From JBDREC01 sp043820105 [NCBI: Pseudomonadota bacterium] (lineage in GTDB: Bacteria; Bdellovibrionota_F; JAHFAK01): 23,069 nucleotides of DNA. A program made the translations under genes and the position numbers. Shown here one piece after another: positions 1 through 9,006 of the stretch (position 1 is its first letter; each line of letters starts with the position of its first letter). The notes under the pieces were generated by a model. The model was not told where the DNA came from and ran no database searches. It saw nothing but the letters and a program-made list of their open reading frames with translations. Location of the stretch: contig JBDREC010000043.1 in assembly GCA_043820105.1 (NCBI GenBank), positions 1 through 23,069 on the forward strand, given 5' to 3'.

Positions 1-1
1 T

Positions 2-1198
2 AGATATGGTGAAATTGAAGTTGACTACACAATTGAACTACCTTACGAATATCCTCTATATACACCAGCTGATCTTCCCGAAGAATATCCATTTTATTTT
101 GGAGATGATTATGAACTCGGTGAGCAAGACTATCCTTATCAAAGTCATGATAACCAACCAGAATTTATTATTTTACCTGATCCTAACAAAGATCCGAATA
201 TAGGAAAACCTCTAATTATTGAACCAAGTCCTGAAAGGGAAGATGAAAATAAAAAACAAATAATTAGATCATTTGAAATAATAGCTTCAGGTGAAAATGA
301 GGGAGATAGTGAAGTGATAGACAATGAAAATCAGGATATTGGGAATGTAGAACATACAGAGAAATCGACACAAGGGTCGAGTGGAATGCTAGAAAGAAAG
401 TTGGATACTGATACAGTACAGAAATGGGATGAAAAATTAAAATTTCAAGTAGAAGTGTCTTTTGATAGGCAATACAACTTTATGATGGAGAATGGCTTAG
501 ATGAATGTGATGAAATTTTGGATGTTGGAACAGGTAACGGTTACTTCTTGGGGTTATTAGCAGTTAATAAGCCATATGTGTCTTTTACTGGATTAGACTC
601 TAATGAAACTATGCTTGGGCGTGCAGAAGACATAGTCCAGGGATTGGGAGTTGATAATGTTACACTATTAAGTGGAGACATAGATCAGGATCCATTTGGA
701 GATAAAGAACCTCAATTTGATGGGATATTATTGAGATATACTGATGTTCATATAAGTGATTTTGAACATACATTATCTATACTATCAAAATATCTAAAAC
801 CAGGGGGTAGAATTTGGATTTTTTCCGTTGAAATAGATAATATGGGGAGTACTCCTGAGCATGAAGTCTATAAATTATATATTGAAGGAATTCAAAGGTT
901 TTACCATACATTTGGCATAGATGGACATAGAGCTACTATTCTTACATCCTTGCTTGATATTGCAGGGTTTTCTGAAGTAGTAAGTGTTCCTGATTTAATT
1001 TCAACTAAAGATCTTGGTGCTAAAATGTTTGGTGACTTTATGATAAATCAGGCTGAAGTGTTCAGACATTTTGATAGTACATCCTTTTCCGAAGAGGATG
1101 TTGAAATAATAAGAGATTTTGCTCATACTTATTTATCATCTCAAGAGTTTAATGGCACTCACGGTGCAGTGATGGTTACGGCTGTTAAAAGCGAATAA
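2..1198 (+). CDS. SAM-dependent methyltransferase with acidic N-terminal extension (5' end outside window)
   Basis: The frame is open from the window edge to the TAA at 1196-1198 (398 codons visible), so the start is probably upstream. A GTG at 314 behind GGGAG (302-306) is a possible internal start. Visible residues 1-105 are acidic and rich in Tyr and Pro, with recurring EYP/DYP motifs, and look disordered. The rest is a class I Rossmann methyltransferase: motif I LDVGTGNGYF, an acidic strand end LDSNE, and motif LKPGGRIWIF before a mixed C-terminal half. Class I enzymes of this kind transfer a methyl group from S-adenosylmethionine; the substrate cannot be read from the sequence. The radical SAM gene begins 23 bp downstream, so the two are probably co-transcribed and may modify the same molecule. 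I am sure of the fold and unsure of the role. Confidence 0.8.
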   Translation, partial: RYGEIEVDYTIELPYEYPLYTPADLPEEYPFYFGDDYELGEQDYPYQSHDNQPEFIILPDPNKDPNIGKPLIIEPSPEREDENKKQIIRSFEIIASGENEGDSEVIDNENQDIGNVEHTEKSTQGSSGMLERKLDTDTVQKWDEKLKFQVEVSFDRQYNFMMENGLDECDEILDVGTGNGYFLGLLAVNKPYVSFTGLDSNETMLGRAEDIVQGLGVDNVTLLSGDIDQDPFGDKEPQFDGILLRYTDVHISDFEHTLSILSKYLKPGGRIWIFSVEIDNMGSTPEHEVYKLYIEGIQRFYHTFGIDGHRATILTSLLDIAGFSEVVSVPDLISTKDLGAKMFGDFMINQAEVFRHFDSTSFSEEDVEIIRDFAHTYLSSQEFNGTHGAVMVTAVKSE

Positions 1199-1221
1199 AT
1201 ATCACAAATATGGTGTGTGAA

Positions 1222-7931: not shown

Positions 7932-7959
7932 GTTTTAGACATGGTTGAAAGGAGAGTTT

Positions 7960-9006
7960 ATGGCATTTCTAAAAGATATTTTGATTGTTGATGATGAAAG
8001 CATTTTAAGGGATTTTGTTAAAAAGATTCTTGGATATGAGTATAAAATAATTGAAGCTGAAAATTATGAAAGTGGCTTAGATAAATATTTAAATAATAAA
8101 ATTGATTTGGTAATTTTAGATATCGATTATCAAGAAGAGCTTACAGGTATTGATCTATTAAAGAAAATAAAACAAAATAACTCCTCTATTCCAATTATAA
8201 TGCTTTCTGATCTAATGGAAACAGAAAACATTGTTGAATCAATCAAATTTGGAGCTTATGATTATATCTCAAAAAACCATGAAACACTTGATGATGAGCT
8301 TCCTTTAAGAATAAAGTCAGCACTTTTACGAAATTTAAAAGAAAGAAATTATGAACAACTAAAACAAGAAAAAATAAATCAGAATCCAATAATAACAAAA
8401 TGTCCTCAAATTCTAAAAGCACTTGATGAAATAAAAGAAATAGAAGATATAAATTTTTTAATAGTTGGCGAAACAGGGGTTGGTAAAACTCCAATTGCTC
8501 AGTATGCAAATAGTGTGATGAAAAATGGCAGTGACAGACCCCTTGTGAGAATCAACTGCGCTGGAATTTCAAAAGAAAGAAGGCAGGATGAAATGTTTGG
8601 CCATAAAAAGGGAGCTTATACTGGAGCGGAATGTGACAAAAATGGACTCGTGGAAATCGCAGATGGGGGTGATTTATTCTTAGATGAAATCGGTGATCTT
8701 CCATTGGATTGCCAAGCTGATCTATTGATGTTTTTAGATAGTGGTGAATATCGTAGAGTTGGTGAAACAACATTGAGATAAGCCCAAAATCGTATAATCG
8801 CTGCTACCAATAAAGATCTTCTAAAAGAAGTAAGCAAGGGCCGCTTTAGAAAAGACCTTTATTCCCGCCTTTCACAATATCGTGTTTATATCCCTCCTTT
8901 AAGAGAAAGAAAAGAAGATATTATTCCTATTATGGAATATTGCATTATTAGCAATTCTCAAATTTCTAATTCTTTTATGAAAAGACATAAATACCTACAA
9001 AATTAA
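7960..9006 (+). pseudogene. Broken sigma-54-type response regulator (in-frame stop, no DNA-binding domain)
   Basis: ATG 7960 follows AAAGGAGAG (7948-7956); the TTG at 7945 is a worse choice. The receiver has the DD pocket (LIVDDES), phospho-Asp in VILDIDY and Lys in YISK. The AAA+ domain has Walker A GETGVGKT, the sigma-54 contact loop GAYTGA and Walker B LFLDEIGD. TAA at 8779-8781 then stops translation at residue 273. The same frame resumes at once with [10 protein letters not shown], the arginine-finger segment [10 protein letters not shown] and [10 protein letters not shown], so one codon has become a stop. The frame finally ends at 9004-9006, where the AAA+ lid and Fis-type helix-turn-helix should be. 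The family remodels sigma-54 polymerase at enhancer-bound promoters; this copy cannot do that unless the stop is read through, and even then it lacks DNA binding. It follows the kinase by 28 bp, so it was probably its output partner. Confidence 0.8.

Follow-up and report, generated by a model that had tools for sequence, protein, structure and literature searches.

The window, by which we mean the whole stretch of DNA analyzed, spans 23,069 nt of contig JBDREC010000043.1 (assembly GCA_043820105.1, JBDREC01 sp043820105, Bdellovibrionota_F) and has a G+C content of 30%. As Table 1 shows, it opens with genes for a methyltransferase (MT) and a radical SAM enzyme (rSAM), followed by a 17-codon ORF (ORF17) and a hairpin, and continues with genes for a solute-binding protein (SBP), a hybrid histidine kinase (HK), and a response regulator (RR). 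A preliminary description had named these gene products, and domain searches confirmed every one of its domain calls. It had also described a one-strand run with short gaps; the MT, rSAM, SBP, HK, and RR genes do share the + strand, but a gap of 180 bases (3184–3363) splits rSAM from SBP. That the binding protein lacks a permease holds for the 15 window ORFs scanned (14700–15344, 20144–21484, and small ORFs lay outside the scan): no permease or transport ATPase family appears among their matches, nor do Opp/Dpp-type permease and ATPase genes accompany SBP in this set. An Rfam search of the window returned tRNA only. The arrangement looks like two neighboring units, unit 1 comprising MT, rSAM, and perhaps ORF17, and unit 2 comprising SBP, HK, and RR.

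Table 1. Positions of genes and features of the two units in the window
Feature	Position	Strand	Basis or remark
Class I SAM methyltransferase (MT) ORF	2..1198	+	Pfam Methyltransf_31 3e-15; 5' end cut by window edge
B12-binding radical SAM enzyme (rSAM), ApyD-like	1210..3183	+	Pfam B12-binding and Radical_SAM
17-codon ORF (ORF17) MKKKETIKIIRKPFCQG, candidate only	3210..3263	+	AAAGGAG in front
Terminator-like hairpin with T-rich tail, closes unit 1	3297..3355	+	Fold and shuffle test
Extracellular solute-binding protein (SBP), family 5	3364..4932	+	SBP_bac_5 6e-63
Membrane hybrid histidine kinase (HK)	4965..7931	+	HisKA, HATPase_c, and receiver domains by Pfam
Broken sigma-54-type response regulator (RR)	7960..8781	+	Receiver and Sigma54_activat

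Further along the window, a 61-base unit occurs three times (100%, 92%, and 74%) at 9181–9363, beside a tRNA-Leu gene (9106–9189) and near a gene for a four-helix-bundle protein. The genes between 9783 and 19083 belong to a deep lineage and are of inositol-phosphate synthase-like, HEAT-like, cyclic-nucleotide, MotA/MotB, and TIGR04552 types. The synthase (MIPS) reaches at best 69% identity among the 80 loci kept, which are spread over many phyla, and its tree gives the window no supported position. The TIGR04552 protein was found in 2 of 34 genomes at 36–41% identity and in 0 of 191 genomes of the phylum of G007 at 1e-30, a search with no in-group positive control. No close relatives of the window's own lineage were found.

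The gap between the units

The gap after rSAM contains a hairpin with 14-bp arms (3301–3314 and 3330–3343), followed by T-rich sequence. Its folding energy (dG) is −19.7 with a z score of −5.4, and none of 300 dinucleotide shuffles of 3298–3352 was as stable; the gap as a whole gives a z score of −3.0, with 3 of 300 shuffles as stable. A terminator scan with a loop limit of 8 omits this hairpin, which has a loop of 15. Transcription could read through the hairpin, which counts against a clean separation of the units.

Two mini-ORFs preceded by a Shine–Dalgarno (SD) motif are observed in the gap, ORF17 and 3319–3357. The latter was set aside as a gene, since its SD motif is supplied by the hairpin stem. 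Among 2000 shuffles of the gap, 7.15% hold at least one SD-preceded ORF of 10–60 codons and 0.45% hold at least two, so that ORF17 by itself is just mildly above chance. A strict ORF17 pattern gave 0 matches in the fetched loci. A loose pattern for its C-terminus gave dozens of scattered matches, seven of them in the 25 radical SAM loci, with the nearest 684 bases from the enzyme gene and none ORF17-like. A short precursor recurring beside its maturase, as expected of a RiPP cluster, is therefore not what ORF17 represents in the fetched loci, and we rejected it as a conserved precursor. Seventeen residues are also short for a leader plus a core.

The radical SAM enzyme, its methyltransferase, and their relatives

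With its B12-binding and Radical_SAM domains and a CX3CX2C motif, the cysteines of which (C213, C217, and C220) are invariant in 12 sequences, rSAM is a B12-dependent radical SAM enzyme; an ATG at 1222 is an alternative start. The core of its AF2 model resembles OxsB, MgmA, AprD4, TsrM, and CysS, and model confidence is below 50 for residues 517–616 and 622–628. The best NCBIfam model is NF050148 (ApyD), which matches residues 29–440 with 289.3 bits, below the cut-off of 750 bits and hence outside the ApyD equivalog. All seven enzymes tested (that of the window and six relatives) have ApyD as their top NCBIfam model, each scoring below the cut-off, and the unit 1 enzyme belongs to an ApyD-like group outside the reach of the curated models. 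A profile of the C-termini of six relatives matches a PqqD protein with an E-value of 3e-4 and a probability of 39%, and nothing among solved structures convincingly resembles these PqqD-like C-termini. The same profile gives 0.48 against the C-terminus of rSAM and 0.44 against an unrelated control; this comparison lends no support to an RRE/PqqD-like recognition domain on the window enzyme.

Our main comparison set consists of the 46 genomes of the phylum of G018, one locus of which (L042) is titled Deltaproteobacteria. Matches to rSAM at 1e-25 are seen in 21 of the 46 genomes, and at 1e-60 there are 14, spread over 11 genomes; these 14 and one weaker match make up the 15 loci fetched from this phylum. 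In the phylum of G024, a threshold of 1e-30 gave relatives in 26 of 140 genomes, the best of them at 3e-65, and an alignment query found 64 loci in viral contigs. Plasmids yielded 163 records of distant relatives, none covering 80% of the query, and back-translated patterns found no close relatives in genome contigs and viral contigs.

The best relative, in G463 (45%), is preceded at 5 bases and in the same order by an MT of 40% identity. The G463 contig ends inside the radical SAM gene, so the downstream side of this locus is out of view. The other 14 fetched loci of the phylum have no window-type MT, and just one such pair is thus seen outside the window; this, with its cut downstream side, counts against the two-unit reading. 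Strong MT relatives are found in 2 of the 46 genomes by a profile search in which both genomes are rows of the profile. In the phylum of G024 the MT profile has hits in 0 of 377 genomes at 1e-40 (six candidates per genome scored in the results shown, and no in-group positive control), and viral contigs gave no match. The window MT is 40% identical to the MT of locus L144 and 30% identical to that of L109.

The MT ORF runs off the left edge of the window and has at least 128 extra N-terminal residues, the MT domain starting from about residue 129. Part of this extension (about residues 9–46) is Tyr/Pro-rich and repetitive (LPYEYPLYTPAD / LPEEYPFYFGDD / EQDYPYQSHD); [DE]YP occurs three times in 62 residues, a count equaled in 81 of 20000 shuffles, for a pattern chosen post hoc. 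An in-frame internal GTG with an SD-like motif lies before the MT domain in both the window and the L144 (reverse strand) MT ORFs. The sites noted in the window are 314 and 386, with 314 as the possible internal GTG start. Upstream of it the frame stays open to the window edge, and in L144 as far as an ATG some 80 codons further 5'. Both ORFs may thus give dual products.

Beside the radical SAM relatives, a different kind of candidate substrate comes into view. Adjoining 6 of the 14 close relatives is a small protein whose N-terminus is hydrophobic (L145, L146, L148, L150, L151, and L153; by eye). In G448:C56, G437:C18, G441:C290, and G466 it lies directly upstream of the enzyme gene, at spacings between an overlap of 4 bases and a gap of 13, and these four proteins have a leader in common. 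Three of the six contain exact tandem repeats, namely TFPPE (seven copies), RMTFPPEATPG (five), and TEYGAP (seven). Searched with a profile of the leader family, 4 of the 46 genomes gave matches; these four are the profile's own rows, and all matches lie beside a radical SAM gene except one short extra match in G448. The repeat and leader proteins were located, all on the − strand, at 7570–8220 in L148, 7371–8063 in L153, 1752–2474 in L150, 5558–6043 in L151, and 6578–7087 in L146; four of these share the leader, and three have Pro/aromatic tandem repeats (TFPPEG-, RMTFPPEATPG-, and TEYGAPTPT-like). These secreted-looking proteins possibly form a new RiPP-like class, and the Pro/aromatic repeat proteins are better candidates for the substrate than the 17-mer.

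Other relatives sit in different surroundings. Several radical SAM genes are grouped around the ApyD-like enzyme in L147, L152, L154, and L155, with DRE-TIM/HMGL-like genes (named by eye) in L147, L152, and L155; the first two also carry small Ala/Gly/Ser-rich ORFs. In L156 (2174–7986), two ApyD-like enzymes, both of whose C-termini were included in the profile that matched the PqqD protein, are accompanied by two small ORFs and by a SPASM maturase for which PapB is the best model, though below its cut-off; this stretch is likely a RiPP cluster. In L168 (4198–7989), an IMG/VR contig listed as viral, a PqqD-family protein (8.5e-05, at the cut-off), a SPASM radical SAM enzyme, and an ApyD-like B12 enzyme lie in a row. 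Given these multi-enzyme clusters and SPASM neighbors, the substrates may vary within the group. The non-repeat contexts weigh against a repeat peptide as the substrate of unit 1, as does the unsupported recognition domain on rSAM, and MT and rSAM could instead act on a small molecule. The RiPP-like modification proposed in the preliminary description is supported by its enzymes, with ApyD as the best model and a partner MT recurring beside the best relative, but no ORF17-like precursor was found in the fetched loci.

The probable sensing unit and its relation to unit 1

The SBP has a hydrophobic, signal peptide-like stretch at residues 3–24, and its best NCBIfam model is Opp4A (149 bits, cut-off 650). 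HK has hydrophobic stretches at 5–33 and 161–198, with about 127 residues between them, followed by HisKA, HATPase, and two receiver domains; this layout is common to a five-sequence alignment (A1), in which the H, N, and G motif residues are kept. A helical tail with an HDINKP motif has no Pfam match of its own and aligns with a HisKA-only ORF of locus L110 at 29% identity, on the basis of which the tail is possibly a phosphotransfer domain. Repeat-derived in-frame inserts lie in two loops of the HK ATPase domain (window ~6120–6210 and 6410–6530), and part of the second insert has a similar, inverted counterpart at 19082–19116. The L106 kinase has different inserts at or near both loops and the L107 kinase near the second, so that inserts at these places are apparently tolerated. 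A literature search on Rickettsia palindromic elements gave loose matches only. RR consists of a receiver and the N-terminal half of an AAA+ domain and ends at an in-frame TAA (8779–8781). Homology to the intact L110 regulator (36%, 4e-57) continues past this codon to ~8950 and then ends, so that RR lacks the remainder of the AAA+ domain as well as a DNA-binding domain. An intact sigma-54-type regulator as the output of unit 2 is therefore absent from the locus, and one may exist elsewhere in the genome.

The A1 profile finds five kinases in 3 of the 46 genomes (G018, G432, and G445) at 1e-60, four of the five being rows of the profile. Of the four that can be judged, three have an SBP gene adjoining or one gene away, and its family differs in every case: a Peripla_BP_6 protein directly upstream with a 4-base overlap in G018:C41, an SBP_bac_1 protein directly upstream in G432:C18, and an SBP_bac_5 protein one FemAB-like gene upstream in G018:C129. 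The window (3364–7931) thus shares with L109 and L110 an SBP gene adjoining a transmembrane hybrid kinase, as in LuxPQ-type systems, and in L111 one gene lies between them. Against this pattern, a second G432 kinase has no adjoining SBP, and in G445 the contig begins inside the kinase gene. In L110 and L111, sigma-54 regulator genes are found upstream of that for the SBP; the kinase is followed in L110 by a separate 90-residue HisKA-only ORF (1.5e-11) and in L111 by a second kinase-like ORF. Together with the HK tail, these suggest a phosphorelay of the LuxQ-LuxU-LuxO kind. Other searches for the kinase gave 0 of 57 genomes in the phylum of G030 at 1e-40 (no in-group positive control), 1 of 40 genomes in another set at 1e-30, 0 of 377 genomes of the G024 phylum with A1 at 1e-80 (two candidates per genome scored in the results shown, no in-group positive control), and no match in viral contigs.

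Since an SBP beside the hybrid kinase recurs, it is likely that SBP reports to HK, and the pairing in relatives argues that unit 2 works like LuxP-LuxQ-LuxO. Of the earlier proposal that SBP captures a peptide and presents it to the kinase, the signaling part is thereby strengthened, but capture of a peptide stays hypothetical. The strongest competitor to our reading is that the SBP–kinase pair senses an environmental nutrient (a peptide or oligosaccharide), with unit 1 as an unrelated neighbor. In the CBP-ChiS system of vibrios, which senses chitin oligosaccharides, GlcNAc2-bound CBP activates the kinase ChiS (PMC7564644), and an SBP family that differs in each relative is what differing outside ligands would be expected to produce. 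Against it, transport genes are absent from the 15 scanned ORFs, and the kinase relatives adjoin modifying enzymes (MT, FemAB-like, GNAT, and amidohydrolase), though these are possibly catabolic. On balance we consider nutrient sensing somewhat unlikely.

Whether the two units belong together was judged from 25 radical SAM loci (15 from the 46-genome phylum, 7 from that of G024, and 3 listed as viral) and the three kinase loci, all of 3 to 16 kb. Called ORFs miss genes in G+C-rich loci, and the counts for SBP, HK, and RR were therefore made by tblastn. Relatives of these three are found in 0 of the 25 radical SAM loci at 1e-5, with which blastp on called ORFs agrees, and rSAM relatives are found by tblastn in 0 of the three kinase loci. 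At 1e-25, the kinase genomes G018 and G445 have no rSAM match, and G432 has seven, none on its kinase contig C18. The kinase genomes overlap with those holding close rSAM relatives in one (G432), on different contigs, where 0.7 would be expected by chance (3 × 11/46). One observation cuts across this separation: an MT homologue (30%, 8e-40) lies directly 3' of the second G432 kinase, its longest start overlapping the kinase gene by 4 bases and the homology beginning later. Strong MT relatives being rare (2 of 46 genomes), this placement is unlikely by chance and loosely ties MT to both units, and a functional link through it is possible.

The single joint locus of the preliminary description does not hold up in these relatives, which carry the units apart, largely the outcome it had named as its own refutation; a joint make-and-sense system is only possible. 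Its two halves fare better, as the enzyme is RiPP-like and SBP and HK form a module, but the hairpin between the units, the broken regulator, and the separate relatives speak against joining them. The ligand of unit 2 may possibly be the product of unit 1. One version, which we regard as distinctly unlikely, is that the radical SAM group matures a new type of ribosomal product, namely secreted or membrane-directed proteins in which a conserved leader is joined to variable Pro/aromatic repeats (TFPPEG, RMTFPPEATPG, TEYGAPTPT), that the window substrate (the Tyr-Pro repeats before the MT domain) is fused in frame to MT, free MT arising from an internal start, and that the SBP–kinase pair may read this product. 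Less probable still is a single system in which SBP captures a modified peptide made from ORF17 and reports it to the kinase: the shared strand, the SD motif and position of ORF17 right after rSAM, the RiPP-like enzyme group, and the MT family beside both rSAM (G463) and kinase (G432) favor it, against which stand the hairpin, the 0 of 25 count, the absence of ORF17-like peptides from the fetched loci, the shortness of the 17-mer, and the broken regulator. An equally poor case can be made for decay of the whole stretch, with unit 2 lacking present function, for the in-frame TAA, the lost C-terminal half of the regulator, and the repeat invasion of HK are set against full-length open SBP and kinase genes, kept motif residues in A1, and inserts that two relatives seem to tolerate.

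Mechanism, significance, and known systems

We therefore favor, as somewhat better than an even prospect, two units with separate jobs, peptide modification in unit 1 and LuxP-LuxQ-LuxO-like sensing in unit 2. Unit 1 would modify a ribosomal peptide, with rSAM using cobalamin and SAM to alter residues of the substrate, most likely by C-methylation, and MT adding a further methyl group. The likeliest substrate would be a peptide with Pro/aromatic repeats, for example the Tyr-Pro-rich N-terminus of the MT ORF or a product encoded beyond the left edge; the 17-mer is less likely. In unit 2, SBP would bind its ligand outside the inner membrane and dock on the periplasmic part of HK, and the signal would pass from HisKA to the receivers, the phosphotransfer domain, and a sigma-54 regulator. 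With the regulator broken in this genome, the output either goes to another regulator or is lost.

If this reading of unit 2 is true, a single kinase family from a little-known phylum has acquired partners from three unrelated SBP families, which would amount to a natural experiment on the gain of new ligands by two-component sensors. B12 radical SAM chemistry would extend to secreted repeat proteins if Pro/aromatic tandem-repeat proteins are the targets of unit 1 and its relatives; if the units are directly linked, a self-made modified-peptide signal is read by a binding protein and kinase. A light literature search, with subscription papers mostly outside it, found nothing on the set of radical SAM enzyme, solute-binding protein, histidine kinase, and peptide signal.

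The nearest described counterpart of unit 1 is the apy (aminopyruvatide) cluster of Burkholderia thailandensis, which likewise combines a B12 radical SAM enzyme and a class I MT, and in which ApyD, described as RRE-containing, β-methylates a Tyr (PMC11117315). The window enzyme, with 657 residues, is close in length to the 645-position model, yet it reaches 289 of 750 bits, and the match stops at residue 440; its C-terminal part did not match the PqqD-like C-termini of its relatives. The window ORFs scanned hold no MNIO or P450 (the left edge is cut), and those read have no ApyA-like GYLYD ending.

For unit 2, ChpT and Spo0B type phosphotransferases have a HisKA domain without an ATPase domain. 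The 90-residue HisKA-only ORF after the L110 kinase resembles them; the window tail differs in being fused to its kinase. LuxU is the separate phosphotransfer protein of the Lux relay. The ChiS kinase differs in layout from HK, and CBP is a family 5 SBP. CBP-ChiS chitin sensing is alike in that a binding protein signals to a kinase (PMC7564644), but no chitin genes were recognized beside the window pair. The LuxP-LuxQ-LuxO quorum-sensing relay of vibrios is alike in its periplasmic SBP, transmembrane hybrid kinase, and sigma-54-type regulator (PMC6872173; LuxO is taken as such from the name of NF041946). The window differs in its family 5 SBP, in two receivers and a HisKA-like tail that replace the separate phosphotransfer protein, in its broken regulator, and in having no known signal synthase. 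We place unit 2, as a new variant, among sensors that pair an SBP with a hybrid kinase.
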